A stretch of DNA of 64,000 bases from Clostridia bacterium. GTDB taxonomy: Bacteria; Bacillota; Clostridia; Oscillospirales; Acutalibacteraceae. The position numbers and the translations under genes are program-made. The stretch is from NCBI GenBank assembly GCA_017454485.1, contig JAFTCX010000056.1, positions 82,316 through 146,315 on the forward strand. The letters run 5' to 3'. Below are positions 2,287 to 20,907 of the stretch, in pieces (positions within the stretch are counted from its first letter, which is position 1; each line of letters opens with the position of its first letter). The notes under the pieces were generated by a model. That model was not told where the DNA came from and made no database searches. It saw only the letters and a list, made by a program, of their open reading frames with translations.

Positions 2287-2287
2287 A

Positions 2288-2448
2288 GTACCCGGTGATT
2301 CACTCGGTGCGTGAAGATTGGCGAGGAAATTTTTCGTCAGATGTAACAGAAATCGCGCAGCAAACCTGACGGTTTGTAAGAGATTTCTGTGCAAAATGAC
2401 GGAAAATTTACCGTCAAGATTTGCACATCCGAGTTAATCAGTGGGTAC
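2288..2448. repeat. 161-bp near-palindromic element, copy 1
   Basis: Begins GTACCCGGTGATTCACTCGG and ends CCGAGTTAATCAGTGGGTAC, which are imperfect inverted repeats of each other. The inverted symmetry continues inward along almost the whole element, including a perfect 9-bp central stem (ACAGAAATC/GATTTCTGT), so an RNA copy would fold into one long hairpin. It begins one base after the ligA stop codon. Two other copies of identical length lie at 11847 and 20747. It encodes no plausible protein. The shape fits a non-autonomous MITE-like element, but no target-site duplication is certain because GTAC itself is palindromic. Confidence 0.85.
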
Positions 2449-2455
2449 TAAAAAA

Positions 2456-2488
2456 CTGCCGGCTGAAAACAGTCGGCAGCATTTTTTT
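2456..2488. terminator. Bidirectional intrinsic terminator between ligA and the ABC-binding lipoprotein gene
   Basis: A 10-bp stem CTGCCGGCTG/CAGTCGGCAG (one G-U pair) with AAAA loop at 2456-2479 is followed by a T7 run on the + strand and by T6 on the - strand. It lies directly after the stop codon of the leftward gene and after repeat copy 1 behind ligA. Confidence 0.85.
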
Positions 2489-3497
2489 ATTTTGCGATAT
2501 AATAGCAGGAATCGGGAAGCGCCGGTTTAAGATACATGGCGTCGATCGCGCCGACCATGGCGGCGCCTTCCATCAGCACGACGTTCGCTCTTGCAATCAG
2601 ATCGACCGCCTGCTGCGTTTTTGCAGCGGCCTGTTTGCGATCGGACTGTTCCTCATTCACCTGCAGCACATCAGCGCTCACAAGACCTTTTTCAATCAGC
2701 AGATCAGTAGCTTCGCCCGGGTGCAGGTTGACCCATTCCACGCTGGCGCGAAGATCAGCGAGCACCTTCTGCACGCCGTCGGGATTACTTTCGATAAAGG
2801 ACTTCTTTGCAATGACGCAGTTTTCCACAAGCGGCTGGGACTTGCGCGCGTCGATCCACGCGTTCGTCAGCGTAAACGCGACCGCAGCACCGCTTTTGGC
2901 AACGGCCAGTGTGGCGTAAGGTTCCGGCAAAACAGCGATCTGCGCGGAGCCGTCGATCACCTTTTCATACACGGCCGCATCAACGGAATCTTCTACCGTC
3001 GCGGTGACGCCTGCCGTTTCAAGCAGGGATTCCAGCTCCGTTTTCAGCGTACCTATCACACGGGACAACGCTTCTTCAGATGCTGCTGTCGGTTCACCGA
3101 CAAGAATCGTTTTTCCGACAAGGTCTTTGACGCCGCCGATCGAAGTGCCGTTCGTCACAACAGACGCGGTGCCGAACGTGTTCACGGCGAGGATCTGCAC
3201 GGAATCCGGCGTTTCATCCAAAAGCTGCGGGACGCGCCACAGCGGCACAACGGCAAGATCGGTGGTCATCGGCGCCGCAGCGATATCCGCATCGGAGATC
3301 ACATAGGTTTCGTCGTCAAACAGCTTTGCCAGGGAAAAGTCTGCAGCCAGTGTGCTGCGTGCAATGGAAATGGGCTTGCCGCTGTAGGCAACGGCTGCGG
3401 GAGTGCGGGGAGTTTCGTTCGTTTCGCCGCAGGCAGCGAGAGAGAACAAGAGCAGGAATACAAGGGAAAGTGCCAGAAACTTCTTGAGGGGTTTCAT
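2487..3497 (-). CDS. ABC transporter substrate-binding lipoprotein (SsuA/TauA/THI5-like)
   Basis: 336 residues. A lipoprotein signal sequence (MKPLKKFLALSLVFLLLFS) ends in the lipobox LAAC with Cys23, so the protein is probably anchored outside the membrane. The body (SIARSTLAADFSLAKLF, VVPLWRVPQLLDE, GTASVVTNGTSI, GKTILVGEPTAASEE, QIAVLPEPYATLAVAKSGA) has the pattern of the NMT1/THI5-SsuA group, which bind sulfonates, nitrate-like anions or pyrimidines. The ligand cannot be told. The start overlaps the stop of the upstream regulator gene by 4 nt, so the two are translationally coupled. No permease or ATPase gene is next to it; a terminator follows directly. Confidence 0.8.
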   Translation of the reverse strand: MKPLKKFLALSLVFLLLFSLAACGETNETPRTPAAVAYSGKPISIARSTLAADFSLAKLFDDETYVISDADIAAAPMTTDLAVVPLWRVPQLLDETPDSVQILAVNTFGTASVVTNGTSIGGVKDLVGKTILVGEPTAASEEALSRVIGTLKTELESLLETAGVTATVEDSVDAAVYEKVIDGSAQIAVLPEPYATLAVAKSGAAVAFTLTNAWIDARKSQPLVENCVIAKKSFIESNPDGVQKVLADLRASVEWVNLHPGEATDLLIEKGLVSADVLQVNEEQSDRKQAAAKTQQAVDLIARANVVLMEGAAMVGAIDAMYLKPALPDSCYYIAK

Positions 3498-4192
3498 AAA
3501 ACCTCACCTTTCTGTATTTGGTCTTTGGATATACACTGCATCAGCAGCTCCCTGCTGATCAAATAAATGATTTTTCCTTCGCGGCGGATCACGCCGTCCT
3601 CCTGCAGGCAGGAAAACGCACGATAAAGTGAAGGACGCGAAATGTCGAGCATGGTTGCAATCTGCTGCATGGAGCAATCAAGCTCAAAGGTCATGTTTTC
3701 GCCGAACGCATTGTTCAAATAACGCGCCAGACGGTTTTGTGCGTTGCCGCCGGTATAGGTCGTCACACGCTGCTCCAAAGTGATGACCCGATCGGAAAGC
3801 ATACGGATCACTCTCATTGCAAAGTTCGGATCGTCCTGCAAAAGCTGTAAAACACCGGCTTTGGTCAAAAAAAGAACACTGGTATCCCGCGTTGCTATGA
3901 GAACGTTTGCGGCATTTGAGCCGGTTGAGAACATCGCCTCCATGCCAAAAATACTACCTTCACCAATACGAACTGCGCAAAGGTCGTTAGCAATTCTACG
4001 TTTGATTGCATTGCCGGTTAGAATAAACGCAAGCGTACCGGAAGATGAACGGTCATCGGCGATGATGTCTCCGCGTTGGAAGGTGCCGGTTTCGGCCTTA
4101 TCATCCAAGACGGATTCCAGTACTGCAGGATCCGTAGAAGCAAACAATTCATGCATTCGCATTTTATGGGTAATTCGCGCACGCTGAATCAC
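3494..4192 (-). CDS. Crp/Fnr-family transcriptional regulator
   Basis: 232 residues from a GTG start. GTG at 4192 is chosen because GGAGGT lies 8 nt upstream; the open frame extends further upstream but through the promoter. The N-terminal part is a cyclic-nucleotide-type beta roll (FQRGDIIADDRSSSGTLAFILTGNAIKRR, IGEGSIFGMEAMF), a long dimer helix follows (VIRMLSDRVITLEQRV), and the C-terminal winged helix includes MQQIATMLDISRPSLYRAFS. There is no N-terminal Cys cluster of Fnr type, so a small ligand is more likely than an iron-sulfur cluster. It is co-transcribed with the binding lipoprotein and probably controls that pair. Confidence 0.88.
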   Translation of the reverse strand: MIQRARITHKMRMHELFASTDPAVLESVLDDKAETGTFQRGDIIADDRSSSGTLAFILTGNAIKRRIANDLCAVRIGEGSIFGMEAMFSTGSNAANVLIATRDTSVLFLTKAGVLQLLQDDPNFAMRVIRMLSDRVITLEQRVTTYTGGNAQNRLARYLNNAFGENMTFELDCSMQQIATMLDISRPSLYRAFSCLQEDGVIRREGKIIYLISRELLMQCISKDQIQKGEVL

Positions 4193-4220
4193 GATTGTCA
4201 CCTCCAAAAAACTGAACCAT

Positions 4221-4249
4221 ATTTTAACACAGACAGAAAAAAAAATCAA
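4221..4249 (-). promoter_or_regulatory. Sigma-A promoter of the Crp/Fnr-lipoprotein pair
   Basis: Read on the - strand: TTGATT (4249-4244), 17-nt spacer, TAAAAT (4226-4221), then the GGAGG and GTG start about 25 nt downstream. Confidence 0.75.
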
Positions 4250-4272
4250 CCCCAAATCTTCCTTTTCTGAAA

Positions 4273-4312
4273 GAAAAAACAATACGCTCGACAAAATGTG
4301 AGCGTATTGTTT
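4273..4312 (-). terminator. Intrinsic terminator of the zinc-ribbon/TPR gene
   Basis: A 13-bp stem (AAACAATACGCTC/GAGCGTATTGTTT, arms 4277-4289 and 4300-4312) is followed on the - strand by T6. It lies 17 nt after the stop codon of the leftward gene. Confidence 0.8.
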
Positions 4313-4328
4313 CAAAACTGTGAACTCT

Positions 4329-6263
4329 TTAACCGGCTGTCGTAGTTGTTACGTCAGCCGCCGCAGTGGCGGTACCGGCTGTTGTTGTAGTTGTACCGGC
4401 GGTTGTTGTGGTTTCGGTCTCAGCCTTTGCCGGAGAGAACACCAGCGTTTCCGTCTGCTTGTCCGGGCCTGTCAGGTTCATCGTTGCCTGATAGGTGATC
4501 TTACCGTCGGCAAACGTCAGCGTTGCGGTCGCAATCGTTTTGTTGTTCGCTCTGTAACGGTCAATGATGTGGTTCTTGGAAACAGCGCGGTTTGCGGAGA
4601 AGAAATAGTAGTTGTCGATCGGCTTGAAGTCCTGCGAACGGTTCTTATTGGGCTTTTCCGCTTCATCGGAGAACACCCAAAGGAGCTTGCCGCCGGAAAG
4701 CTGGAAGTCGGACACAAGGGTGTGATTCTCTTTTTTCGCGCCCTTTTCAATGTTCGACGTCTGCTGCGTGCAGGTGAATGTGCCGGCATAAGCCGCAAGA
4801 GATTTATAGTTGTTGTAATAGGCGAGCAGCTTCTTTGCATAGGGGTAATCTTTCGGCATAGAGTTCAGATCCGTCATTGTCACGCTGGACATGGAGGCGG
4901 ACATCTTCTGTGCCACAAGCGTGCAAAGAAGCAGGCCCGGGCTCTTTTGATAATCGCCGAGCGCGGTGAAGATTTCAATGGCGGCGTCCAGCTTATCTTC
5001 CTTGACAAACGTCACGCCCTGCTTATAGATCGTTGCAAGCTGCGTTTTCACATCTTCGGTTTCACCGAGCTGATGAAACAGATTGATCGCTTCTTTATAG
5101 TTGCCGTTTTCCGCAAGCATTTCGGCAAACTGATACTGCGCTTTCTGAATCTGAACGTCGCAGTCCTGATAATCGCCGAGGGACTGGAACAGGGAGATGG
5201 CTTCTTCAAAGAACTTTTTCCCCACAAGATCGACAGCCTGCAGATACTTTGTGTTTTTGATCTTGTCGGCGGTGTCTTTATAATCGCCGAGCTTTTGGAA
5301 GTTTTCGAGCGCAGCGGCGTAATTGCCGGACTGCATCTGCTCCGTCGCGGTGCGATATGCGCTTTCGCGGGTATAGTAGCCATAGCCGAAATAACCGCCG
5401 GCGCAAAGCAGGATCAGCACAAGAAGGATTGCGACGACCTTGCCGCCCTTTTTCTTCTTGTTGGCCTTTTTCTCTTCTTTGGCAGCTTTCTTCGCCGCTT
5501 TTTTCTCTTCCTTGGAAAGCTTTTCTTTCTTGGCCTTCTTGTCTTTTTTCTTGCCCTTTTTGCCTTCGTCGGCTTCCTCATAATCATCGGGGATCAGGCC
5601 GTTGAATTCGGGCACGGGTTCTTCACTGCCCTCCACACGGGCAAGCTTTTTGGCGTTGAGCACACGGAAATCGACCTTGCTGAGTTCGTCCAGCGCACAG
5701 CCGCAAACGTGGCAGTTGGCCTCCTCACGCGCATTGATCGCGCCGCAGGCACAGCACCAAAGATCGCGGTCGATCACAGGCTGGAACTTTGCGTCGGGCG
5801 TGTATTCCATCTGGTATTGCTTCACCATTTCCACATCGCCCTGCAGCAGCGACAGCAGATCCTGCTGCATCGGCAGCGGATTCCATTCGGCGTCGGCGTC
5901 AGCCGTCCATTTGGTTTCGTCCGCAAACACGACCTCCGTCACGCAGGCCTTGAAGCCGGTCGCTTCCGCAGCGGAAACGATGACAGCGGATTTTTGTCCG
6001 AAAAAGTCGTCACGCGCGGCGGCGAGATGCTGATAAGCATAGGTCATTTTGTCGGCCAGCGCGTTGCCTTCTTCATCCACGGGAACAAGGGCGAGCTTTA
6101 CGGCAGAGATCACCTGACGGCTGATGTTTTTCAGTTTCAACTGCGCCAGCAAAACTTCCTTTTCATGATCCTTGAGCAAAAAGCCCTGTGCAATCACGAC
6201 GGGAGCGCCAATTGCATAGAGATTCTCCGGCAAAGAGAACAGTTTTTCAAATCGACCGCTCAT
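4329..6263 (-). CDS. Zinc-ribbon, single-pass membrane protein with TPR-like repeats (function unknown)
   Basis: 644 residues, not recognised as a named family. Seen in order: an N-terminal beta-rich domain (1-160, LLAQLKLKNISRQVISAVKLAL); a zinc ribbon with CxxC pairs Cys170/173 and Cys184/187; an extremely Lys/Glu-rich stretch (235-273); one membrane segment (276-295); then three or more helical repeats of about 40 residues with the recurring pattern F..LGDYKD/LGDYQDC; a lipocalin-like beta region; and a Thr/Ala tail (TTTTAGTATAAADVTTTT). The topology would put the zinc ribbon inside and the repeats outside. The start at 6263 is chosen for its GGAGGT 7 nt upstream. Monocistronic, with its own promoter and terminator. 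Confidence 0.75.
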   Translation of the reverse strand: MSGRFEKLFSLPENLYAIGAPVVIAQGFLLKDHEKEVLLAQLKLKNISRQVISAVKLALVPVDEEGNALADKMTYAYQHLAAARDDFFGQKSAVIVSAAEATGFKACVTEVVFADETKWTADADAEWNPLPMQQDLLSLLQGDVEMVKQYQMEYTPDAKFQPVIDRDLWCCACGAINAREEANCHVCGCALDELSKVDFRVLNAKKLARVEGSEEPVPEFNGLIPDDYEEADEGKKGKKKDKKAKKEKLSKEEKKAAKKAAKEEKKANKKKKGGKVVAILLVLILLCAGGYFGYGYYTRESAYRTATEQMQSGNYAAALENFQKLGDYKDTADKIKNTKYLQAVDLVGKKFFEEAISLFQSLGDYQDCDVQIQKAQYQFAEMLAENGNYKEAINLFHQLGETEDVKTQLATIYKQGVTFVKEDKLDAAIEIFTALGDYQKSPGLLLCTLVAQKMSASMSSVTMTDLNSMPKDYPYAKKLLAYYNNYKSLAAYAGTFTCTQQTSNIEKGAKKENHTLVSDFQLSGGKLLWVFSDEAEKPNKNRSQDFKPIDNYYFFSANRAVSKNHIIDRYRANNKTIATATLTFADGKITYQATMNLTGPDKQTETLVFSPAKAETETTTTAGTTTTTAGTATAAADVTTTTAG

Positions 6264-6318
6264 GATAGTACCTCCAATAACGTAACTCAATCGTTATATT
6301 TTTAATGCTGTATTTTTT

Positions 6319-6347
6319 ATTATAATGCCCGTATCAAATTTTGTCAA
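6319..6347 (-). promoter_or_regulatory. Consensus sigma-A promoter of the zinc-ribbon/TPR gene
   Basis: Perfect TTGACA (6347-6342), 17-nt spacer and perfect TATAAT (6324-6319). It is the strongest promoter by sequence in the window, implying abundant expression of an uncharacterised protein. Confidence 0.85.
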
Positions 6348-6356
6348 GAAAAATCG

Positions 6357-6400
6357 GGCTTTTCGATGCATTCCTCATCGGCTTTTCGATGCATTCCTCA
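6357..6400. repeat. 21-bp tandem duplication over a stop codon
   Basis: GGCTTTTCGATGCATTCCTCA occurs at 6357-6377 and 6380-6400. The right copy holds the last bases and the stop codon of the VanY-type gene; the left copy lies just downstream of it. Confidence 0.9.
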
Positions 6401-7276
6401 ATAGGCAATCCCCTGTTGATCGAGGAATTCCTCCAGACACAGCCCGCTGTCGCGGATCTGCTTTGCCCATTCCACGCCGACATAGCGCCAGTGCCAGGGT
6501 TCGAACACAATGCCGGTCACATCCTCCTTGCCCTTCGGGTAACGCAGGATAAAGCCGTATTTATACGCGTTTTCAGTCAGCCAGGTGTATTCCTTCTGAT
6601 TGACGAACGAATCATAGACGTTGCAAATATCCATGCAAAGGCCGAGGTTGTGTTCGCTTGTGCCGGGCGGCAAAATCACGGTCGCCGCCTTTTTGGCAGC
6701 GTCCTCGCGGGAAAGATGATAGTCCGCCATATAGGTTTCCGTCAGGTGGTTATAGTTGTTCTTCTGCCGCTCATAGGAACGGTAGGCGGAATACGGCGTA
6801 AGAATGATACCGTCCTGCTTTGCTGCGGTATACATCTCCTCGTAATGCGGCGCCACGCGCGCATCAAGATATTTTCCCGTGTCAAAAATTTCGTCGAGAT
6901 TCGGTTCATAGCTTTCCGGAAACTCCCGTGTGCCGCTCACGACCACAAGCTGCCAGTTATCGTCTGTCACTTCTACAATATAGCGCCCGGTATCGGGATT
7001 TGTTACACGTTCGGCAGCCACGCTGGAAATCACCTGCGAAGGGGCAGAAGGTTCGGATGCCGAAGCTGTTTCGGTGGTTTGCGTATCGGAAACGGAAACG
7101 GAAGCAGACGGCGCCTGTGAAGAAGCGGAGGGTTCGGAGGCTGAAGAAGCGGAAGTTTGCGGCGCTTCCTGCAGCGTGCTCTGCTTGCGGTTGACTAGCT
7201 CCAGCGTGCCAAACACTGCGAGCGCCAGAATCAAAAGGATGATGATCACATATTTAAGATCGGAATGTTTTTTCAT
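6398..7276 (-). CDS. VanY/DacB-type D-alanyl-D-alanine carboxypeptidase (M15B)
   Basis: 292 residues. An N-terminal anchor (YVIIILLILALAVFGTLELV, residues 9-28) is followed by a Ser/Ala/Thr-rich spacer of about 60 residues and the M15 domain. Zinc and catalytic motifs are visible: SEHNLGLCMDI (His and Asp ligands) and EPWHWRYVG (Glu base and His ligand). The family trims the terminal D-Ala from peptidoglycan stems outside the membrane. The start at 7276 has GGAGG 5 nt upstream; an upstream in-frame ATG lacks a ribosome site. It is the last gene of a leftward run starting at 11095. Confidence 0.9.
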   Translation of the reverse strand: MKKHSDLKYVIIILLILALAVFGTLELVNRKQSTLQEAPQTSASSASEPSASSQAPSASVSVSDTQTTETASASEPSAPSQVISSVAAERVTNPDTGRYIVEVTDDNWQLVVVSGTREFPESYEPNLDEIFDTGKYLDARVAPHYEEMYTAAKQDGIILTPYSAYRSYERQKNNYNHLTETYMADYHLSREDAAKKAATVILPPGTSEHNLGLCMDICNVYDSFVNQKEYTWLTENAYKYGFILRYPKGKEDVTGIVFEPWHWRYVGVEWAKQIRDSGLCLEEFLDQQGIAY

Positions 7277-7330
7277 TGAATCCTCCTTGAGCAAGAATCG
7301 GGACTGTTTGTGCAAACAGCCCCTTTTTTA

Positions 7331-8581
7331 TCAGTCGTACTGCTCTTTCAAGCCCTGCTCGTCAAACATAAACAGCGCGTGCAGGCAGATGTCGAGCGAT
7401 TTTTCAATCGTGCGCGGCTCGAGCAGCTCTTCCGTGTCGCGGCGCGTATGATAATAACGCGGGCCGGTCGGATCCATGGCGGCAAGCGTGGCGGCAGGCA
7501 CGCCGAGCTTTGTCACTGCGGCAGCGTCGGACGAGCCGAGATACACGCTGTGATACGGCAGATCCACACCGCACTGCGCACCGGCGGCTTTCATCAGCGC
7601 GCACACACGCGGATCGTTCTTGACAGTGCCGGTCATATCCTTGGCATAGATGGCCATATCGTCAAAGTCGCGCAGGGTGTCCATGCAGAAAAACACGGTC
7701 GGAATCTCCTGCAGCTCCTTCTGATGCGCTTTAGCATAGGCGCGCGCCCCGCGCAGACCGCATTCTTCGCAGCCGGCAGTCAGCGCCACGACTTCCGTGT
7801 TTTCAAAGGTGATGTTGTTGTCTTCCAAAAACTTGAGCACGCCGATGCTGGTCACACAGCCGGTCAGGTTGTCGTTTGCACCCATCACGGGTTTTTTGAA
7901 ATTCGAAAAGAACATGATGAGGATGAACGCGGGCACAAAGCCGAGTTCGATATAGCGGAACACGACGAACGCGCCGGTCACTTCACCGCCGACCGGGCCG
8001 AACTGCACGGTTTGGATGATGGAGATCACAAGCATATACAGCAGACCGACGATCGCATAGCCGGAGCCGCCGAAGAAAAGCGCCTTTCCGCCGAGATGCA
8101 TGAAACGCCATTCCCAAGCGGAATCGGTGTGACCCGCAAAGATGATGCGCTGCTTGACTTCGCCGGTCGGTGTTCTTGTGCCGATCGTGTTCGCGGACGT
8201 TTTTTTTGGGAAGAACGGATCGAGGAATTCCCAGTAGAACAGGAATTCGGTCAGCAGGAAAAGGATCGCAAGGCATGTCAGCGCCAGCGAAACGACGGGC
8301 AGATTCAAAAATGAGCACAGCACGGCGCCCAGCAGGCAGATACCATCAAGCACGACCCAGGCCATGAACGCCACGGGATGCACGTTGAAATCTTCCATAA
8401 CGACCTTGTCGGCGCAGGTTTCCATCTCTTCCTTGAAATGCTCCTGCGCTTTGCGTTCGCTTTCGCTGCCCGAACCGCGCGGCCCGATATTTTTGCAGAC
8501 TTTACGGATCTCTCTGGTGGTGTAGTTGCAATACATCCGCAGAGAGGACGGATAATTTTTGACACTTTCTTCGGCTTTCAT
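7331..8581 (-). CDS. Membrane-embedded M28-family metallopeptidase
   Basis: 416 residues. Zinc-ligand motifs of the M28 aminopeptidase fold are visible in order: GHTDS (His/Asp), GANDNLTGC (Asp), EECGLRG (Glu pair), FCMDT (Asp) and YYHTRRD (final His). Unlike soluble M28 enzymes, hydrophobic segments occur before the first motif (about 68-118) and between the first His and the Asp of GANDN (FGGSGYAIVGLLYMLVISII and FVPAFILIMFF). The domain is therefore predicted to be interrupted by membrane hairpins. Substrate unknown. It lies between the Dabb and VanY genes in one leftward run. Confidence 0.78.
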   Translation of the reverse strand: MKAEESVKNYPSSLRMYCNYTTREIRKVCKNIGPRGSGSESERKAQEHFKEEMETCADKVVMEDFNVHPVAFMAWVVLDGICLLGAVLCSFLNLPVVSLALTCLAILFLLTEFLFYWEFLDPFFPKKTSANTIGTRTPTGEVKQRIIFAGHTDSAWEWRFMHLGGKALFFGGSGYAIVGLLYMLVISIIQTVQFGPVGGEVTGAFVVFRYIELGFVPAFILIMFFSNFKKPVMGANDNLTGCVTSIGVLKFLEDNNITFENTEVVALTAGCEECGLRGARAYAKAHQKELQEIPTVFFCMDTLRDFDDMAIYAKDMTGTVKNDPRVCALMKAAGAQCGVDLPYHSVYLGSSDAAAVTKLGVPAATLAAMDPTGPRYYHTRRDTEELLEPRTIEKSLDICLHALFMFDEQGLKEQYD

Positions 8582-8604
8582 TGAAAAGCAGCCCCTTTCT
8601 GAAT

Positions 8605-8919
8605 TTAATCTGTGTCGTCGACCGCATAATCAACCGAGGCGCGGCCGTCGCGCACAAGGGCAATGTATTCGGTAATATACTTATGCGCGGGATGCAGACG
8701 GTAGGTCGTGATATCGCGCAGCGATTTAAATGTGCTGACTGCCACGGCGTCATACATTCCGGGCTTGTCATTGATGTTGAAATACACCTTCATCGAAAGC
8801 AGACAGTCGATCTGGTCAGGCAGCGCTTCCATTTTTTCTTTGATGTAATGCAGGTTTTCTTCCTTGGTTCTGTCCTGGGCATACTCCTTGAGCTTCCACA
8901 TAACGATATGGCGGATCAT
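8605..8919 (-). CDS. Dabb-family (stress-responsive A/B barrel) protein
   Basis: 104 residues with the typical start MIRHIVMWKLKEYAQ, a central DQIDCLLSMKVYFNIND and the closing AHKYITEYIALVRDGRASVDY. This is the dimeric ferredoxin-like Dabb fold, usually of unknown role in bacteria. AGGAG lies 8 nt upstream of the ATG. It sits 14 nt after proX in the same run. Confidence 0.85.
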   Translation of the reverse strand: MIRHIVMWKLKEYAQDRTKEENLHYIKEKMEALPDQIDCLLSMKVYFNINDKPGMYDAVAVSTFKSLRDITTYRLHPAHKYITEYIALVRDGRASVDYAVDDTD

Positions 8920-8933
8920 GGCAGATACTCCTT

Positions 8934-9437
8934 TCAGCGTTCACAGCGGATGAAGAGCACTTCATTCCCCTGCGCTTCAATGAATTTCAGCAAATCGGAA
9001 AACTTGAGCCATACAAAGGCGGTGTTGACATTCGGGTGGAATCCCACAAGCCCGTCGAGCGTGAGCAGATCGCGGTCGAACACGACCTTGACGTCGTGCG
9101 CGTCGTTGTTCAGCACACCGAACGGCGTCACCGAACCCGGCTGCAAGCCAAGGTGCTTTTCCAGCCGTTCCGCTGAACCGAAGGACAGCCGCGAAGAGCC
9201 GAGCTGCGGCTTGATGGACCCCTGAATGTCGGGGTGTTTGTCTTTGCACATGGAAACGATGTAGTGCACTTTTCCGTTCGCGTTGCGCAAAAACAAATTT
9301 TTGCACACTTCGCCGCGGGTAAAAATGCCAAGCGCGTCCATGTCTTCGATGGTGTGTACGGGCGGATGCTCCATCAGTTCATAGGTGATCCCGGCCGCGT
9401 CCAGCGCATCGAGTACCTTTTTCATTTGTTCATTCAT
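8934..9437 (-). CDS. proX: Prolyl-tRNA editing protein ProX (YbaK/EbsC superfamily)
   Basis: 167 residues. Free-standing deacylase that hydrolyses mischarged Ala-tRNA(Pro) in the cytoplasm. Features: YELMEHPPVHTIEDM, GEVCKNLFLRN with the conserved Lys, QLGSSRLSFGSAERL, LGLQPGSVTPFGVLND and VGFHPNVNTAFVWLKF. These match the ProX/PrdX branch rather than YbaK. Its start overlaps the stop of the preceding gene by 4 nt, so translation is likely coupled to a secreted protein with no evident link to tRNA editing. Confidence 0.9.
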   Translation of the reverse strand: MNEQMKKVLDALDAAGITYELMEHPPVHTIEDMDALGIFTRGEVCKNLFLRNANGKVHYIVSMCKDKHPDIQGSIKPQLGSSRLSFGSAERLEKHLGLQPGSVTPFGVLNNDAHDVKVVFDRDLLTLDGLVGFHPNVNTAFVWLKFSDLLKFIEAQGNEVLFIRCER

Positions 9438-10609: not shown

Positions 10610-10645
10610 CGGAATGCACCTCTGTCAGCGTTGTTCCTTTTTGTG

Positions 10646-11095: not shown

Positions 11096-11124
11096 GAGTA
11101 GAACCTCCTGAATTTGATAGAGCC

Positions 11125-11161: not shown

Positions 11162-11206
11162 TCATGATTCTTATTTTTTCTGTGTTTCATGATTCTTATT
11201 TTTTTT
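11160..11206. repeat. Tandem duplication (about 20 bp) over the subunit D stop codon
   Basis: TTTCATGATTCTTATTTTTT occurs at 11160-11179 and again from 11185, period 25 bp. The right copy carries the TAA stop of subunit D. Confidence 0.9.
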
Positions 11207-11804
11207 GCCGCTTGACAACCTTCAGGCGCGAGAAATCCTCACGTTCTTTTTCGTCAAGCGCTTCGCTGATCTGTTTGACCGTTGCTTCAAAGCGCGGAAT
11301 CATGATATTAGACAGCGCGTTGGAGCGCTTTTGCGTTTTTTTCACAGCGTCCGCAAGGCGGCAAATGCTGCTTTCAATTTCGGAAAGCGACGCGGTGAGC
11401 GCCTTCACTTCGCTGAACCGGCGGCACGCTTCGTCAAAATCGGCGTTCGTTTCAAGAAAGCCGAACGCGCGCACATCCACGGTCTGCTCTTTAAGCTGCA
11501 CTGTCGGCAGCTCCACGCCCATCACGGAGCGGTAGTCGATCTCGATATCGTCCGCCACGGGCACGGCACTGACAAAGCGTGCGAGCGAGCCGAGGTTGAG
11601 CGTTGCGCGTTTGAGCGCGTCGAACGCGGCAGCGTAGGTTTCGCCGATCTGCGACTGCACGTCTTTCGCCTTGTCAATGAGCTGCATCATCTCGCGCACG
11701 AGGATGTTCCGCTTGCGATCCATCAGATCATAGCCGAGCTTTGCCAGCTCCAACGATTTTTTTGTGTTCATCAGATTTGCCTTGGTCGGCACGATCTGCG
11801 CCAT
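11196..11804 (-). CDS. ntpD: V-type ATPase subunit D (central rotor shaft)
   Basis: 202 residues. The N-terminal helix (IVPTKANLMNTKKSLELAKLGYDLMDRKRNILVREM) and the C-terminal helix (NALSNIMIPRFEATVKQISEALDEKERE) are the coiled-coil signature of subunit D, which turns inside the A3B3 head. It carries AGGAGGT 6 nt upstream of the ATG. It is the last gene of the operon and the only one separated from its neighbour by a large gap (188 nt), which is filled by repeat copy 2. Confidence 0.95.
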   Translation of the reverse strand: MAQIVPTKANLMNTKKSLELAKLGYDLMDRKRNILVREMMQLIDKAKDVQSQIGETYAAAFDALKRATLNLGSLARFVSAVPVADDIEIDYRSVMGVELPTVQLKEQTVDVRAFGFLETNADFDEACRRFSEVKALTASLSEIESSICRLADAVKKTQKRSNALSNIMIPRFEATVKQISEALDEKEREDFSRLKVVKRQKK

Positions 11805-11846
11805 GCGATCACCTCCTGCGAAAATTCAAAAGATCAGCCTTGGTAG

Positions 11847-12007
11847 GTACCCGCTGATTCACTCGGTGCGTGAAGATTGGCGAGGAAACTTTTCGTCAGA
11901 TGCAACAGGAATCGCGCAGCAAACCTTCCGGTTTGTAAGAGATTTCTGTGCAAAATGACGGAAAATTTGCCGCCAATGTTTGCGTATTCGAGTTAATCAG
12001 TGGGTAC
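11847..12007. repeat. 161-bp near-palindromic element, copy 2, inside the V-type ATPase operon
   Basis: Same length and terminal inverted repeats as the copies at 2288 and 20747. It separates subunits B and D. Its right end, read leftward, gives GTA CCC ACT GAT TAA: these codons are the last four residues and the stop codon of subunit B. Inserted in an operon, its RNA would fold as a long hairpin between two cistrons. Confidence 0.88.
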
Positions 12008-13363
12008 GTAGTACTTGTCGAGCATTTTTTCGTCCACGCGATCCAGCTCGCTGCGCGGCAGCATTGACAACAGCTTCCAACCCAGATCGAGCGTTTGCTC
12101 CATCGAGCGGTTTTCCTTCCCCTGCCCGAGGAACTGTTCCTCAAACGCTTTGCCGAACGCCATCACGCGCTTGTCGCCGGCGGAAAGCTCGTCTTCGCCG
12201 ATGACGGAAGCGAGTGCTTTCGCATCCTGCACACGGGCATACAGCGCAAAAAGCTGGTTGGCCAGCGCAGAATGATCCTCCCGCGTAAAGCCCGCGCCGA
12301 TGCCGTCCTTCATCAGACGTGACAGCGAAGAAAGCACATTCACCGGCGGATAAATACCTGTGGTGTCAAGGCCGCGATCCAGCACGATCTGCCCTTCCGT
12401 GATATAGCCGGTCAAATCGGGAATTGGGTGGGTGATGTCGTCGTTGGGCATGGTCAGAATCGGAATTTGCGTCACAGAGCCCTTGGCGCTGTTGATGATG
12501 CCGGCGCGTTCATACAGCGTTGCAAGGTCGGAATACAGATAGCCGGGATAGCCTTTTCTGCCGGGGATTTCACCCTTCGATGAGGAAAACTCGCGCAGCG
12601 CTTCGCAGTACGACGTCATATCCGTGAGGATGACGAGAATATGCTTGTTCATTTCAAACGCGAGATATTCCGCGGCGGTCAGCGCGCAGCGCGGCGTGAT
12701 GATGCGTTCGATGATCGGATCGTTGGAAACGTTCAAAAACATGACCACACGGTCCATGACGCCTGCATTTTCAAAGGAGGTACGGAAATAATCCGCAACG
12801 TCGTTTTTGACGCCCATCGCCGCAAAGACGATTGCAAAATCCTCGGAATCGGCCACACTCGCCTGCTCCACGATCTGCACGGCAAGCTCGTTGTGGCGCA
12901 TACCGGAGCCGCTGAAAATCGGCAATTTTTGACCGCGAATGAGCGTGGTCAGACAGTCGATCGACGAGATGCCGGTGCGGATGTAGTTTTTGGGATACAC
13001 ACGCGCCACGGGATTCATCGGCTGACCGTTGACGTTCATTTTTTTCTTCGGGAACACCTCGCCCAGCCCGTCGATCGGTCGGCCGAGTCCGTCGAACACA
13101 CGGCCGAGAATTTCGCCGGAAAGCGGCATTTCCATCGGGTGACCGGTCAAACGTGTGCGGGTGTTGACCATGGAAAGACCGCGCGTGCCCTCAAACACCT
13201 GCAGTGCGACCTTGTCGCCTTCAATGGCAACAATTCGGCCGGTACGGGCGCTGCCGTCGGGCAGGCTGATTTCCACAAGCTCTTCATTGATCGGGTGCTC
13301 CACGCCCTCCAGAATGACCAGCGCGCCGTTGATCTCGCTGAGTCCCTGATGTTCAATCAGCAT
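11993..13363 (-). CDS. ntpB: V-type ATPase subunit B
   Basis: 456 residues, close to the usual length. Non-catalytic nucleotide-binding subunit of the head. Motifs: [92 protein letters not shown] and [21 protein letters not shown]. The C-terminus ends DKYYVPTD; the final VPTD and stop are encoded by the end of repeat copy 2, so the original tail has been replaced. It lies 12 nt after subunit A. Confidence 0.97.
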
Positions 13364-13375
13364 GAAAAACCCTCC

Positions 13376-15139: not shown

Positions 15140-15144
15140 TCACC

Positions 15145-15738
15145 TCACGCTTCCAGCGTCATGCCGGATTCCTGTAAAAAGACGTCTCTTTGCGCGCGCA
15201 GACGGCTGTCGAACGTATCTTCCAAAAACAGCGTTTTGTCGCTGTTGCACACGGCAGCAAGGCCGATGGAGATTTCGTCGCTTGCGCAAACGTCCTTCAC
15301 GCCGGCGATGTCTTTGCAAATGTCCGTTGCCGCCGGAAGATCGCGTGCGCAAACAAACACCGTTGCGCCTTCGCCGATCCGCGACGCAAGCGCTTTGATG
15401 CATTTTTCAAGCGTATCACAGTATTCCGGCGTCCGGCAAAAGGCGCAAAGCTCATGCTTTGCCTTTTCAAAAACGGCGGAAACAATCTCTTCGCGGTGCT
15501 GCACGGCCGCACGGCGCACATCTGCGTGCAGCCGCGCGATCTCGCGGTTGGTTTGCGTGCGCAAACGGCCCGTTTCATAGGCGGCGCGGCTTTCAAAATC
15601 CGCTTTTGCCTTGGCGGAGAACTGATCGAGCTGCTCCTTTGTGGCGCGTGCGGTCTTGGTTTGCATCTTTTTGACGATCGCGTCGGCATTTTTATAGATT
15701 TCGCGGGCAAAGCCCTCTATTTTTTCGTTTTGATTCAT
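15145..15738 (-). CDS. ntpE: V-type ATPase subunit E (peripheral stalk)
   Basis: 197 residues. A long, Ala/Lys/Glu-rich N-terminal helix (IVKKMQTKTARATKEQLDQFSAKAKADFESRA) is followed by a globular part ending LFLEDTFDSRLRAQRDVFLQESG. This is the E-type stator that pairs with the G/H subunit encoded first in the operon. Identification rests on composition, size and position. Confidence 0.9.
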   Translation of the reverse strand: MNQNEKIEGFAREIYKNADAIVKKMQTKTARATKEQLDQFSAKAKADFESRAAYETGRLRTQTNREIARLHADVRRAAVQHREEIVSAVFEKAKHELCAFCRTPEYCDTLEKCIKALASRIGEGATVFVCARDLPAATDICKDIAGVKDVCASDEISIGLAAVCNSDKTLFLEDTFDSRLRAQRDVFLQESGMTLEA

Positions 15739-15753
15739 GGTTCCTCCGTTCTG

Positions 15754-16059
15754 TCACACATTGATTCCGATCGCGTCGCGCACATAGCGCGTGATGCTGT
15801 CGCTTTCGGTCGTCAGATTCGCCATATCGGGAATTTCGGTGACAAGCAGGGTCTGATTCTTTTTGAGCAGCAAAAGCTCTGTCGGATACTGCAGCGACAG
15901 CGTGCGCGTGACAAGCAGAATGCCCACATCGCCGCGCGCGATCACACGCTGTGCGGTTTCGTTCAGCGCTTCTGCAGAATTCACAAGCGCACCCTCCACA
16001 CCGGCAAGGCGCAGCCCTGTCAGTGTGTCTTCATCCGCGCTGAGAAGAAACATTTTCAT
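15754..16059 (-). CDS. ntpG: V-type ATPase subunit F (central stalk regulator)
   Basis: 101 residues. MFLLSADEDTLTGLRLAGVEGALVNSAEAL and the DVGILLVTRTLSLQYP strand are the Rossmann-like pattern of subunit F, which binds subunit D at the centre of the rotor. It lies 6 nt after subunit K and 15 nt before subunit E. Confidence 0.93.
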   Translation of the reverse strand: MKMFLLSADEDTLTGLRLAGVEGALVNSAEALNETAQRVIARGDVGILLVTRTLSLQYPTELLLLKKNQTLLVTEIPDMANLTTESDSITRYVRDAIGINV

Positions 16060-16065
16060 CGTTTC

Positions 16066-16554
16066 TCAGACCTTGTTGAGGATCAGAATGGAAATAACAA
16101 CGCCGTACAGGGCGATGGATTCACCCAATGCAACGAAGATCAGGCTCTTACCGAAGGATTTCGGGTCTTCACTCGTCGCGGCAATCGCGGCAGGCGCACC
16201 GGCCGCAACGGCGATACCGCCGCCGATGCCGGAAATTGCGGTGACAAGACCGGCCGCAAGCAGGCCGAGCCCTTTATCGGAGGAGGATGCGGGCGCCGCC
16301 GCAGCTTCTTCGGCTTCGGCAGCCTGCGCGGTCGCTTCGGGCGCAGCAACCGGCTCGTTTGCAGCGGACACAGCGAACGCGCAGATACTGACCATCACGA
16401 TCAGAATCAGGAAGGTCACGAGATTGACGCGCATCACTTTGCGGGCGGGTTTGCCCTCCATGCGCTTTTTAAAGGTATAAAACGCGGAAAACATCAGCGC
16501 GAGTGCGGGCAGGATGATGAGTGCGGCTGTGAGAAAAACGTTCATTGTGTTCAT
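16066..16554 (-). CDS. ntpK: V-type ATPase membrane rotor subunit K (c-ring)
   Basis: 162 residues with two unequal halves. The C-terminal hairpin (GLGLLAAGLVTAISGIGGGIAVAAGAPAAIAATSEDPKSF..., then SLIFVALGESIALYGVVISILIL) is a normal c-ring hairpin with the ion-binding Glu in LGESIALYG. The N-terminal half has two hydrophobic helices without a carboxylate (VFLTAALIILPALALMFSAF and LVTFLILIVMVSICAFAVS), joined by a 35-residue Ala/Glu/Pro linker. One ion site per four helices is expected. Na+ versus H+ use cannot be told by eye. Confidence 0.92.
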   Translation of the reverse strand: MNTMNVFLTAALIILPALALMFSAFYTFKKRMEGKPARKVMRVNLVTFLILIVMVSICAFAVSAANEPVAAPEATAQAAEAEEAAAAPASSSDKGLGLLAAGLVTAISGIGGGIAVAAGAPAAIAATSEDPKSFGKSLIFVALGESIALYGVVISILILNKV

Positions 16555-16568
16555 AATAATTTCCTCCG

Positions 16569-18542
16569 TCAGTTTGATTTTGATTTATGATAAGCTTTTT
16601 TTGCAAGCTTTTTTTCCGAAAACGCATGGAGCTTTGCGGCTTCAAACGCGCGTCCTTCGCCTTCATAAAAGCGCGAGAACATCTCATAGAATTCCAGACG
16701 CAATCCCTGAATGCCGGAAAGCAGACCCTCCAGCGCGATGACAAGGATGTTGCCCAGGATGATGACGATGATGCCCTTGACGCTCTTCGGGTCGCCGGCG
16801 AGGGTGAAAACGACCATCATCATGGACGCGTGCACGATTACAAACGCGCCCACGCGCAGGAACGAAACAGTGTTGCTGAAATAAGACAGCACATATTCGA
16901 TCGTTTCAAACAGGTTTTGCATGATGTAATCGGAGATGCTTTCGGGCTTGACGAGGTGATGTTCGTCAATGGAGCCGGCGATGATCTCCTTATTGAAAAG
17001 AATCAGCAGACCGACCGCAAGCATCATCACGGAAATGTTCGACGGGATGAGCGTCTTATGCGACATGAAGGTATACACCAGCGAAACGCCGCCGAGATAG
17101 ACCGCAATGCCGGTCAGACCGTTTTCGCTGAACAGCGCCGTGCCGATCTTTCCCTTTTTCAGCGAAGAGACGATGTTCAGACACATGGCGACAACTACGA
17201 GCGCGATGCCGATGCCGATGGCAAAGACGAGCACCGTGTTGATCGAATCCATGACGGAGATCGGTTTCCCGCGCATGCCGAGCTTTTCATACAGCGGATC
17301 GAGCGCTTCCTCAAAGCCGAAGACCGACCCGAACACAAAGCCAAAGATCATGGACGCGAAGCCGCACGGCAAAAGGATTTTTCCGAGCGCCATGCCCTTG
17401 AGCTTCCACATGGCGAGCCCGACGAGGATCAGCGCAAGACCCTGACCGACGTCGCCGAACATGATGCCGAACAGCAGCGTAAATGTGATGGCGACAAAGC
17501 CGGTGATATCGATGTCGTTATAGGACGGCAGACCGTACATTTCAACGAAAAAGCTGTAGGGTCTGAAAAAGATCAGATTTTTCAGCCGCGTGGGCGGACG
17601 GACATGATCGCCCTTTTCGGGGTCTTCGATCTCCACGGAGAACGCCGGATATTTTTCCAGCCGCGCGCGCAGCCGCTTTTCGCTTTTGGCCGGTATCCAG
17701 CCGACGTAAAAGCAGTTCTTTTCATGGAACACCGCGTATTTGCGCAGTTCAAACAGATCGGAGGACTGCACAAGCTTTACATACAGCGCGCAGATGCGGT
17801 CGCCCTCGGTTTTCCAGATTTCGGCAATCTTTTCGTGCAGCTCGTTCTGCTGCGCTTCAATGATCGTGATGTTCTCTTCCAGCCGCGCAATGATCTCTTC
17901 GGTCGTGCCGACGGCGGAGGGCACATGCATACGGTCAAAATGCAGCGAGGCAAAAATGCGGTCCACCTCGTCCTCGTGCTCCTTCGGCGCAAAATAAACG
18001 CCCCAATAGCCGTCGCTGTCGGTGGAACACGGCACAAATAAGATGTAAGGATGTTCGCCGTAGCCGCGCGTGAGCTTCAGATAGCTGTCCTTGGACAGAT
18101 GGCCGAAGCGCGCGACAATGAACTTGCAGGCAAAGATGTCCTCGAGCTTTACGCCGAGGCCGAGAAAATGCGAATACTGCGCGATGCCGGCGCGGCAAGT
18201 TTCGATCTGGTCGTTCAGCGACGCGGCCTGCGAAGCGAAATCTGCGAGCCGCCGCTCAAGCTGTTCCACATATTCCTGCGTTTTTTCGTCGATCACGGTG
18301 CCTTTGACTTTTTTTGCGGTTTCAAGGCTCACATCAAACTGCCGTGCAAGATCTTTGATCACGGAGATGGTCGTCTGATAGGGATTTTCCTCGTTGAGCG
18401 GCGCGTAGCCCATCGTCGGTGAGATGAACGAATCCGCTTTTTCCGGGTGGAAATTCCCGTCGCTGCAAAGGGCGCCGATGACTTTTCCAAGCTGGGCTGT
18501 CGGTCCGTTGACCATGACCAGCTTCATTTTTTCAATCGCCAA
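16569..18542 (-). CDS. ntpI: V-type ATPase subunit I (a-type stator, ion channel)
   Basis: 657 residues from a TTG start, chosen because GGGGTG lies 9 nt upstream. The N-terminal soluble half carries coiled-coil arms (EYVEQLERRLADFASQAASL, EENITIIEAQQNELHEKI). The C-terminal half has several membrane segments, including GFVAITFTLLFGIMFGDVGQGLAL and the helix region DYIMQNLFETIEYVLSYFSNTVSFLRVGAF, which contains the essential Arg. The subunit forms the ion half-channels next to the K ring. Confidence 0.95.
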   Translation of the reverse strand: MAIEKMKLVMVNGPTAQLGKVIGALCSDGNFHPEKADSFISPTMGYAPLNEENPYQTTISVIKDLARQFDVSLETAKKVKGTVIDEKTQEYVEQLERRLADFASQAASLNDQIETCRAGIAQYSHFLGLGVKLEDIFACKFIVARFGHLSKDSYLKLTRGYGEHPYILFVPCSTDSDGYWGVYFAPKEHEDEVDRIFASLHFDRMHVPSAVGTTEEIIARLEENITIIEAQQNELHEKIAEIWKTEGDRICALYVKLVQSSDLFELRKYAVFHEKNCFYVGWIPAKSEKRLRARLEKYPAFSVEIEDPEKGDHVRPPTRLKNLIFFRPYSFFVEMYGLPSYNDIDITGFVAITFTLLFGIMFGDVGQGLALILVGLAMWKLKGMALGKILLPCGFASMIFGFVFGSVFGFEEALDPLYEKLGMRGKPISVMDSINTVLVFAIGIGIALVVVAMCLNIVSSLKKGKIGTALFSENGLTGIAVYLGGVSLVYTFMSHKTLIPSNISVMMLAVGLLILFNKEIIAGSIDEHHLVKPESISDYIMQNLFETIEYVLSYFSNTVSFLRVGAFVIVHASMMMVVFTLAGDPKSVKGIIVIILGNILVIALEGLLSGIQGLRLEFYEMFSRFYEGEGRAFEAAKLHAFSEKKLAKKAYHKSKSN

Positions 18543-18559
18543 ATATTGTCACCCCGATT

Positions 18560-19591
18560 CTATAGGTTCAGCCCGTCGCGCAGCGTTTGCGCCGGGACCT
18601 GAAATTTGATGCCTTCAATGATGCGTACAAGGTTTTCTGTTTGAAACTGCGAAAGCAATAGATAGCAGAACATCACAACGCTCGGATACACCGAAAAGCG
18701 GATCTGCTTCTTGCAGCGATCACACAAGCTGCGCGAGAGCTGCGTTTCCAGCGGCAGCTCGCTTTCCCGGGAAAACCAGTCTTTATAGCAGCCGCGCGAA
18801 ACAGATTCCAAAAATGCGTCTGCGCTCTCGAATTTTCCGAACTGCGCCACCTCGCGTTCGGAAAAATTCGTCAGTGTCACCATGCTTTGCAGCGGCACCT
18901 GCGCCAGCGGCAGGATGTCTTTATAGGATTTCAGCGCACGAAAGGTGCTTGAAATGAGCTTGATATCCAGTGATGCGCTGATGAGCTCCAAAAGCGCCTT
19001 GCGTTCGCTGCCGGAAAAGCAGTCCTTGATGAGCTTTTTGATCGCGGTTTCAAAATAGGACTGAAACGCCAGCTCAAACGTCAGATAGCTGACGCGTTCG
19101 GCGTTCAGGCACGAACGGTAAATGCGCTCATAGGGTGTGCGTCCCAGCACAGCGAGCACTTCCTGCAGGCTGTTTGCCCGACCGAGCGCGAACAGATCGA
19201 TATGCACATGCTTATCCAGAAACGGATTCATCTGCAGCAGATAGATTTCGCTGTTGCCGGACAGCAGCGAAACGGTGCAGCGCAAAATCTGCTCGATCTC
19301 TGTTTTTATAATGAAGTATTGATAAAAACGGTTGCCGATGGCGAGTTCATACCGGCAGATGGACGCAAAATGCTCAAACTGCCGCTTGGAGACCAGCTCC
19401 TCCAGCGCGGAAGCGGTGCAGATTACACCCGGCGCCGACAACAGCGCTTCATATTCCGGTTTGCTTTTTAAAACGCCGGTAAACTCCGTGAGCGTTTTGC
19501 AATTCACCAGCGCGTCATAATCCGCTTCGGTCAGCCGTTTGCCGTAAAGCGCCCGTGAAAGCGCAAGCACGGCGTTTGCGCCTTTTGCCAT
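18560..19591 (-). CDS. ntpC: V-type ATPase subunit C (rotor-ring adaptor, AtpC/d-type)
   Basis: 343 residues. The funnel-shaped subunit that joins the D/F shaft to the K ring. Helical pattern includes LALSRALYGKRLTEADYDALV, YFIIKTEIEQILRCTVSLLSG and SYLTFELAFQSYFETAIKKLI. The start at 19591 is chosen over a longer frame because GGGAGGTGA sits just upstream and the product begins MAKGANAVLALSR. It lies 28 nt after the G/H gene. Confidence 0.9.
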   Translation of the reverse strand: MAKGANAVLALSRALYGKRLTEADYDALVNCKTLTEFTGVLKSKPEYEALLSAPGVICTASALEELVSKRQFEHFASICRYELAIGNRFYQYFIIKTEIEQILRCTVSLLSGNSEIYLLQMNPFLDKHVHIDLFALGRANSLQEVLAVLGRTPYERIYRSCLNAERVSYLTFELAFQSYFETAIKKLIKDCFSGSERKALLELISASLDIKLISSTFRALKSYKDILPLAQVPLQSMVTLTNFSEREVAQFGKFESADAFLESVSRGCYKDWFSRESELPLETQLSRSLCDRCKKQIRFSVYPSVVMFCYLLLSQFQTENLVRIIEGIKFQVPAQTLRDGLNL

Positions 19592-19619
19592 GGCGTCACC
19601 TCCCAGAGAAGATTCATAA

Positions 19620-19931
19620 TCAGCCTTCCTTGGCGCGCGCGACGATTTGCCGCACCCACGCTTCTTCGTGTGCGCGATAGAGCGCATCCAGTCCGTCGAT
19701 CAGCGACTGCTTGCTCTTTTCAATCTCGGACAGCGCGGCGGACTTTGCTTTTTCCGACTGCTGCTGTTCTTCGGCAATGAGCGCGTCCAGCTTGTTCTGA
19801 TAGTCACGTTCCAGTGCTTTGCGCTGTTCGTCCACGGTTTCAAGCGCTTTGACGCGTTCCTTTTTCGCTTTGGAAACACGCACGCGGGCTTCTTTGTCAA
19901 TTTGGATGAGGCGATCAATCAGTTGCTCCAT
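19620..19931 (-). CDS. V-type ATPase peripheral-stalk subunit G/H
   Basis: 103 residues, almost entirely a charged helix (MEQLIDRLIQIDKEARVRVSKAKKER..., EEQQQSEKAKSAALSEIEKS). This matches the small coiled-coil stator partner of subunit E, which commonly opens bacterial V-type ATPase operons. Assignment rests on its position and composition. AGGTGA precedes the ATG. Confidence 0.82.
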   Translation of the reverse strand: MEQLIDRLIQIDKEARVRVSKAKKERVKALETVDEQRKALERDYQNKLDALIAEEQQQSEKAKSAALSEIEKSKQSLIDGLDALYRAHEEAWVRQIVARAKEG

Positions 19932-19997
19932 AACGGTTCACCTTTAAAAAATGAAAATGCAGGGGAACGTCGGTTTCTCCCCTGAAATATAAAACAT

Positions 19998-20025
19998 ATT
20001 ATAGCACTTTATTTTTTTATTTCAA
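19998..20025 (-). promoter_or_regulatory. Sigma-A promoter of the V-type ATPase operon
   Basis: TTGAAA (20025-20020), 16-nt spacer, TATAAT (20003-19998). A short AGGGGA/TCCCCT hairpin lies in the leader between the promoter and the first gene. Confidence 0.75.
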
Positions 20026-20074
20026 GAGAAAGTCTCAATTTTTTTTTGTGACTTCCTACAAAGATCAAAATGCC

Positions 20075-20103
20075 TTGCATTTATTTTTATTATATGTTAA
20101 TAT
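20075..20103 (+). promoter_or_regulatory. Sigma-A promoter of the LUD-protein gene
   Basis: TTGCAT (20075-20080), 17-nt spacer, TAATAT (20098-20103), 37 nt before the start codon. Confidence 0.65.
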
Positions 20104-20140
20104 ATCGTCAAACGTTATTTTGAATACGGAGGAATCGCTG

Positions 20141-20746
20141 ATGGACATTCAGAAAACCATGGCAAATTTTGAAAAACACGGGTTTGCCGTGTCGTATTTT
20201 GCAACAAAAGAAGCGGCTGCCGCCTATTTGAACGAGCAGATCGACGGCGTCACCGTCGCTGCCGGCGGCTCGATGACGATTGCCGCCATGGGGCTGCAGG
20301 AATCGCTTTCGGCGCACAACACGTTTTTGTCCCACGCCAATCCGCCGCAGGGCATGACCGCCGACGACGTGCGCCGCGCGGCAATGACGACCGACGTTTA
20401 TCTCACCTCGGCCAACGGCGCAACCACAAGCGGCGAGCTTGTGAACATTGACGGCGCGGGCAACCGTGTGGGCTCCACCTACTTCGGCCATAAAAAGGTC
20501 TACTTCATCGTCGGCATTCAAAAATTCGAGGACACGCTTGAAAAAGCGATCTTCCGCGCGCGCAACATTGCTTCGCCGAAGAACGCGCAACGGCTGCATC
20601 GAAAAACGCCGTGTGCGCTCAAAGCCGACCGCTGCTATGACTGCAACAGCCCCGAGCGCATCTGCAACGGACTTTCCATCCACTACCGCAAGCTCTATTC
20701 CGCAGATACCGAAGTTGTCATCATCGGCGAGGAGCTCGGCTATTAA
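20141..20746 (+). CDS. LUD-domain protein (LutC/DUF162-like)
   Basis: 201 residues. GGAGG 8 nt upstream sets the start at 20141; the frame is open further upstream through the promoter. Motifs: VTVAAGGSMTIAAMGLQESL, DVYLTSANGATTSGELVNIDGAGNRVGSTYFG and KVYFIVGIQKFEDTLEKAIFRARNIASPKNAQRL, then a Cys-rich tail (CYDCNSPERIC). The LUD fold is found in lactate-oxidation proteins, but single-domain members like this one are usually isolated and of unknown function. No lutA/lutB is near. The stop codon directly abuts repeat copy 3. Confidence 0.88.
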   Translation: MDIQKTMANFEKHGFAVSYFATKEAAAAYLNEQIDGVTVAAGGSMTIAAMGLQESLSAHNTFLSHANPPQGMTADDVRRAAMTTDVYLTSANGATTSGELVNIDGAGNRVGSTYFGHKKVYFIVGIQKFEDTLEKAIFRARNIASPKNAQRLHRKTPCALKADRCYDCNSPERICNGLSIHYRKLYSADTEVVIIGEELGY

Positions 20747-20907
20747 GTACCCGCTGATTCACTCGGTATGTGAAGATTGGCGAGGAAATTTTTCGTCAGA
20801 TGTAACAGAAATCGCGCAGATAACCTTCCGGTTTTCAAGAGTTTTCTGTACAAAATGACGGAAAATTTACCGTCAAGATTTGCATATCCGAGTGAATCAG
20901 AGGGTAC
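20747..20907. repeat. 161-bp near-palindromic element, copy 3
   Basis: Starts on the base after the LUD stop codon. By eye it differs from copy 1 at about 14 of 161 positions, with changes concentrated in the central loop, while the terminal inverted repeats and the long symmetric stem are kept. Confidence 0.88.

Follow-up and report, generated by a model that had tools for sequence, protein, structure and literature searches.

A miniature inverted-repeat transposable element of Oscillospirales with a conserved interior that folds better on one strand

What are the three near-identical repeats lying at gene ends in a 64,000-nucleotide stretch of a Clostridia bacterium genome, and what ties them to those ends? 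The stretch, analysed at its full length and termed here the window (G000:C27:82316-146315), belongs to a 2.42-Mb draft genome (G000) of 90 contigs that is 87% complete. Its repeats (copy 1, 2288..2448; copy 2, 11847..12007; copy 3, 20747..20907; all on the + strand) are each exactly 161 bp long, as stated in an original prediction that took them for a mobile element tied to mRNA 3′ ends, either by target choice or because it works as a hairpin or processing site. We found that these repeats are miniature inverted-repeat transposable elements (MITEs) without a gene of their own, and we consider it very likely that they are moved by a DDE transposase of the IS5 family and enclose an older, conserved interior. 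The copies differ pairwise at 13 (1-2), 14 (1-3, against a predicted figure of about 14) and 19 (2-3) positions, and a repeat search of the window ranks them first (D1, 3 copies of 170 nt, 88-91%); chance repetition was rejected as their origin. The predicted terminal inverted repeats (in copy 1, left 2288..2307 on + and right 2429..2448 on −) and internal symmetry were likewise recovered: over the first 20 bases, the two ends agree in inverted orientation at 17, 17 and 19 positions in the three copies, and copy 1 folds at −80.8 kcal/mol vs −38.5 ± 4.0 for shuffles (n = 200).

The repeat extends well beyond the window, with 152 terminal-repeat ends at ≤3 mismatches in the 2.42-Mb genome vs 1 for a reversed-pattern control, of which 132 fell within stretches examined for element boundaries. 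This density amounts to roughly two copies per 64 kb, so that three copies in the window are ordinary; the clustering of three in 20 kb with none in the next 43 kb, which had been thought notable, was accordingly rejected as meaningful. Using the ends alone, we delimited 87 elements (58 in G000, 15 in G019, 6 each in G004 and G012, and 1 each in G013 and G016), and among the 86 that have a left flank, where the duplication played no part in setting boundaries, a perfect target-site duplication of 4 bp is present in 45, as against 2 bp in 4, 3 bp in 6 and 5 bp in 1. The commonest duplications are CTAA (8), TTAG (6) and TAAA (5), with TTAA also common. In the window, copy 1 is flanked by TAAA (2284..2287 and 2449..2452) and copy 2 by GTAG (11843..11846 and 12008..12011), while the flanks of copy 3, TTAA (20743..20746) and TAAA (20908..20911), share 3 of their 4 bases. 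In RUG13829 (L141), whose syntenic region is 85-90% identical, none of the three sites is occupied; this genome has a 72-bp element of its own after atpD that is absent from the window. These short non-coding units thus combine terminal inverted repeats, a fixed-length duplication, empty sites and a dispersed high copy number, and with relatives in the genus they bear out the prediction of a mobile element. Two further collections were delimited with boundaries partly chosen by the duplication, for which reason their duplication counts lean high: 26/69 in a mixed set from 27 genomes (96 matches listed, reduced to 74 by removing 21 opposite-strand doubles and 1 weak place, of which 69 passed the end test; the boundaries of G102, G164, G246, L269 and L295 are doubtful) and 30/49 in G400 (49 of 66 matches yielded boundaries without repeats). 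Searches of viral contigs by end and core patterns, and of phages and plasmids, returned 0 matches, on which a phage or plasmid relative was rejected. Elements also occur at many contig ends of G000 (C3, C28, C33, C50, C53, C60, C76, C81, C83 and C85), and the repeat therefore probably broke the assembly. Tandem arrangements were seen at L094 (G000:C52:36838-36982), where the left end is repeated three times at 41-bp spacing, and at L265 (G339:C30), with three element copies at ~349-bp spacing.

For a mobilizing enzyme, we turned to the elements of the order that bear related ends. The end core CTGATT is common to the window family and to the intact IS5-family elements L248, L242 and L243, with differing first bases: L248 and L242, which encode NF033581 transposases, combine TTAA flanks with GGATAC.CTGATTAAAT at one end and, at the opposite end, a diverged version of it, and L243, again with an NF033581 transposase, has two GGAA-type ends. 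Two more NF033581 transposases belong here, namely that of L241, for which one end was observed (GGAACCACTGATTTAATC, adjoining CTAA), and that of L132, which is bounded by GGCAACACCGCACAA-type ends and, on visual reading, by a TAAA duplication, and is 45% identical to the L248 transposase. A degraded IS5-type transposase was also noted at L134 (G009:C17); its C-terminal end bears a GGAACC-ended element. The window family resembles the IS5 group (NF033581) in duplicating 4 bp of target, most often CTAA or TTAG, and in the shared end core, and is unlike the IS5 elements in lacking an internal transposase and in having ends of the form GTACCC rather than GGAA or GGATAC. These likenesses between sequences suggest IS5-type mobilization of the window copies. 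Under such a mechanism, an IS5-family DDE transposase would recognize the ~20-bp ends, cut a 4-bp target, usually YWWR, and leave the 4-bp duplication; its action on these particular copies is what we infer, from termini, duplication, motif, copy number, empty sites and related ends that are all directly observed.

While the ends are what such an enzyme would read, the interior is what is most conserved. The conserved 105-nt core (2316..2420 in copy 1, 11875..11979 in copy 2 and 20775..20879 in copy 3, all +, the strand that folds best as RNA) was modelled from 14 sequences as a covariance model with rough E-values, and at E ≤ 1e-4 it matched 71/394 genomes of the order, from 44/169 genera and 14 family labels. 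In a sample of 398 genomes of the phylum, six of them from the order, a stricter cut-off (E ≤ 1e-5) left 2 matches, G000 and G048, both from the order and both used to train the model, and none among the 392 genomes outside the order. Elements aligned from ten genomes differ in their ends and share strongly conserved inner arms, with an apical stem that, by eye, varies with compensation; RNAalifold predicts 53 pairs on this alignment, 27 with change on both sides. Averaged over alignment columns from 33 genomes, identity reaches 0.86 and 0.80 in the two inner arms and 0.54 in the outermost 20 columns on either side. The end types, grouped by eye, are GTACCC/GTAACC-CTGATTAA, GGAACCTCTGAATAAAT, GGCAACACCGCACAAT, TGGTTCAGGTGTCAAAAG, GAGGCGGCACGCCGGGCAC, GACGTGAACCGCTGCTGC, GAAGTTGCTTTCATAGCC and GGTCACATCTAAAAACC, the last five (TGGTTCAGGTGTCAAAAG to GGTCACATCTAAAAACC) with one or two elements each. 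One genome, G400, has 96 listed core matches, or about 85 places once opposite-strand doubles are removed; several of its matches span ~157 nt rather than 104 (e.g., C75:3826-3983) and constitute a larger variant. Over 80 V-ATPase loci of named genomes, stretches too short for a negative to count against the core being present there, the core model gave one truncated weak match (L170). No Rfam family reached its gathering score at the window copies (the best sub-threshold match, at copy 1, is STnc430 with 26.3 bits against a cut-off of 47), and a known Rfam RNA was thus rejected as their identity. In open-access literature, as represented by titles and abstract starts, we found no account of this element. 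We see a MITE family of a known kind, in which the new part is a conserved, strand-constrained interior with differing ends.

The strand constraint is visible in the folds themselves. The window + strand folds better than its complement in 58/58 copies (−88.9 vs −66.6 kcal/mol), the same strand is the better one by genome means in 35/35 genomes (the 27 of the outer-arm mismatch test and 8 more of the genus) and in 30/30 of the 171-bp G400 copies, and orientation called from sequence alone concurs for 69/69. Mismatches are biased, with G.T exceeding A.C by 225 to 74 when summed per genome and, in the outer arms, which lie outside the model, by 70.8 to 21.5 (more in 21 genomes, fewer in 4 and tied in 2). 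Among copies of the genus, the numbers of G.T and A.C variant types are about equal (23 and 22), and the G.T variants reach more copies than A.C (P = 0.001) and more than other mismatches (P = 0.02). Short forms of 70-84 bp bear on what the core is for: they lack the motif TTTCGTCAGA in 17/17 cases, against its presence in 52/63 full forms, and display a perfect duplication in 8/17. As copies without the core carry target duplications, the core is seemingly dispensable for transposition, its conservation calls for another reason, and it probably has another job beyond transposition. We take the interior to be an older module, found order-wide with several end types, in which a variable apical stem tops two strongly conserved arms and whose symmetry is kept so that one strand folds well, with G.U tolerated more than A.C. 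The reading we consider most likely, at about even odds, is that the better-folding strand functions as folded RNA or as a single strand. As a more tentative extension, which is possible though doubtful, the interior could be an order-wide structured RNA carried as the cargo of miniature transposons, with ends changed repeatedly via several IS5-type vehicles and one-strand folding across the 44 sampled genera.

The link to gene ends can be weighed from the insertion contexts, for which genes were called on the emptied loci by our own codon-usage caller rather than a standard program. The 87 insertions divide into 34 between tandem genes, 14 convergent, 13 divergent, 21 inside a called gene and 5 at an edge; of those inside genes, 13 lie within 22 bp of the stop and 8 deeper. 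Mapping of stop distances places the duplication over or directly after a stop codon in 15/86 cases (two of these being neighbouring elements at G000:C61, each counted at a stop), compared with 4.1 ± 1.9 for random intergenic positions, 7.4 ± 2.5 for YWWR sites and 7.0 ± 2.4 when the motif was derived from insertions distant from any stop (P about 0.001). G400, a genome of another family of the order whose elements have other ends, shows 11/49 at a stop vs 5.7 ± 1.9 expected (P = 0.01), and in the 27-genome mixed set 12/69 lie within −7 to +10 of a stop. Within 60 bp upstream of starts, there are 32 insertions against a null of 30.5-34.6, that is, no depletion. The excess at stop codons, over what intergenic placement and the target motif would give, is therefore about two-fold in two families of the order, each with a well-sampled genome, real but modest, and the predicted tie to 3′ ends stands to that extent; most copies are elsewhere, and an obligatory 3′-end element was rejected, with 71/86 duplications off stops and 13/87 insertions divergent and hence without a 3′ end. 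Target choice, one of the two predicted routes, accounts for part of the link, for the common duplications CTAA, TTAG, TAAA and TTAA contain TAA or TAG; the remainder would reflect harmless insertion, a stop being restored by either the duplication or the terminal repeat. Insertions lie mostly outside gene bodies, with 8/87 reaching deeper than 22 bp into a called gene.

The window copies illustrate these contexts, and the stop positions given for them in the original prediction hold. The gene for the NAD-dependent DNA ligase LigA (304..2286, +) ends at 2286, with its stop TAA in the left duplication of copy 1, which starts at 2288. This copy separates the ligA stop from a terminator-like hairpin (2456..2479, +) that adjoins this stop in the empty allele. 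A gene for a LUD-domain protein (20048..20746, +; start codon uncertain) ends directly at copy 3 (20747), its stop TAA falling within the left flank. Copy 2 lies between atpB (V/A-type ATPase subunit B; 11993..13363, −) and the downstream atpD (subunit D; 11196..11804, −) and contains the last codons and the stop (11993-11995) of atpB; as read from the empty allele, it was inserted two codons ahead of the old stop, changing the AtpB tail from KYYQG* to KYYVPTD*, so that the stop and tail are now supplied by the element.

Several observations weigh against an IS5-mobilized element with an interior conserved as folded RNA. On the side of the enzyme, the IS5 duplication motif is given as YTAR in the pertinent part of PMC10359306, and strictly only 16/45 perfect duplications fit it (33/45 fit the relaxed YWWR). 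In G000, itself 87% complete, searches with PF01609, PF13586, a remnant tail and a full IS5 transposase gave 0 matches, leaving the IS5-type partner a posited one; the full transposase likewise found no match in G019, no transposase with exactly GTACCC ends was found, and the ORFs adjoining the solo ends C25:74832 and C60:15210, inspected by eye with no family search, include none. The search for a transposase with the same termini, suggested with the original prediction, thus found none in G000, and what was found are the related ends on IS5-family elements of the order. On the side of the interior, G400 has 18 G.T vs 6 A.C types with a weak result for variant frequencies (P = 0.083), A.C exceeds G.T in G339, G342 and G408, and the strand asymmetry may be partly inherited, the copies sharing ancestry. 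The better-folding strand is more often antisense than sense to the adjoining gene end (20:11; 18:5 in the 27-genome set, which includes some G400 copies counted again in the next figure; 15:9 in G400; and 23:8, 16:12 and 12:9 for tandem pairs), the region surrounding copy 1 (2200-2540) yielded no promoter-like site, and in the mixed set 4/69 touch a stop, a raw count without a null and with some doubtful boundaries.

The antisense orientation bears on the view that the element is a device of mRNA 3′ ends, a hairpin after stops that stabilizes, processes or ends transcripts and is held there by selection. The very stable fold, the stop-codon excess in two families and the placement of copy 1 ahead of a terminator-like hairpin all count in favour of such a device, but a stronger strand that mostly runs antisense to the gene ending beside it is a misfit with a plain mRNA 3′-end hairpin, most duplications are off stops (only 4/69 touch one in the mixed set), divergent insertions occur, and the three window sites are empty in the nearest relative; we judge it improbable. 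The idea of a working hairpin has indirect backing from the strand-specific constraint on pairing. A stronger competitor is an ordinary MITE with a functionless interior, in which the core similarity across the order would reflect shared ancestry alone and the ends would have diverged along with their transposases. Its duplication, ends and copy behaviour are indeed MITE-like, and two end types each adjoin an IS5-family transposase, the pair being 45% identical; however, without function the interior should lose its sequence sooner than ends that transposition requires, the reverse of the observed identities, and the mismatches are strand-biased. We hold this explanation to be possible, if on the doubtful side.

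Rather unlikely, in our view, is a constraint on DNA rather than RNA, acting on a single-stranded replication or transposition intermediate or through the avoidance of palindromes. G.T is tolerated in DNA hairpins too, and the window copies are far from perfect palindromes (94-100 ungapped self-matches of 161); on the other hand, the short forms without a core carry duplications, and palindrome avoidance alone predicts no bias of G.T over A.C. For the interior, our tentative order of preference puts folded RNA first, single-stranded DNA second and plain ancestry third. A REP/BIME-like identity, with movement by a RAYT (Y1) transposase via hairpin recognition, would suit palindromic, many-copy and largely intergenic elements, but REP/RAYT elements leave no target duplication, whereas the clear 4-bp duplication and ~20-bp terminal repeats fit a DDE transposase; this identity was set aside on that ground, no search for a RAYT gene having been made, and strikes us as very improbable.

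Several known bacterial repeats offer comparisons for the window family. The ERIC/IRU elements of enterobacteria are imperfect palindromes of about 127 bp near gene ends that form mRNA hairpins; they belong to a different host group, and the likeness is one of description rather than of aligned sequences. RUP of Streptococcus pneumoniae has an IS630-type TA target, and we know of no exchange of ends in the Correia/NEMIS elements of Neisseria. The latter are about 107-155 bp long with terminal repeats and many intergenic copies, and their RNA stem-loops are proposed to act on neighbouring mRNAs via RNase III, while RUP, of 107 bp, has 108 intergenic copies, their ends presumed to serve a transposase acting in trans; most such repeats carry a TA motif at their ends (all from the relevant passages of PMC2229807). 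As described in those passages, Correia/NEMIS are like the window family in terminal repeats, many intergenic copies and stem-loops, and RUP in being short, intergenic and numerous with ends probably read in trans; unlike the window family, RUP has no conserved interior module mentioned there. The TA-type target of Correia and RUP is not that of the window family, which has a 4-bp duplication and a 2-bp count of 4/86.

Elsewhere in the window, we noted a tetrahydrofolate (THF) riboswitch at 30254-30350 (+; 88.8 bits), the sole Rfam match, and three direct-repeat pairs 1.42-1.45 kb apart in 46105-48543, which suggest a duplicated gene.

For the biology of these bacteria, the family inverts what is expected of MITEs, which should keep the ends read by the transposase and lose the middle; here, it is the middle that is conserved across a bacterial order. 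A target motif that includes stop codons lets such a transposon enter gene ends at little cost; one ATPase subunit gene now takes its stop from the element. Should the conserved middle prove to be folded RNA, the order would possess a mobile regulatory module that reaches about 85 copies in a single genome, G400.

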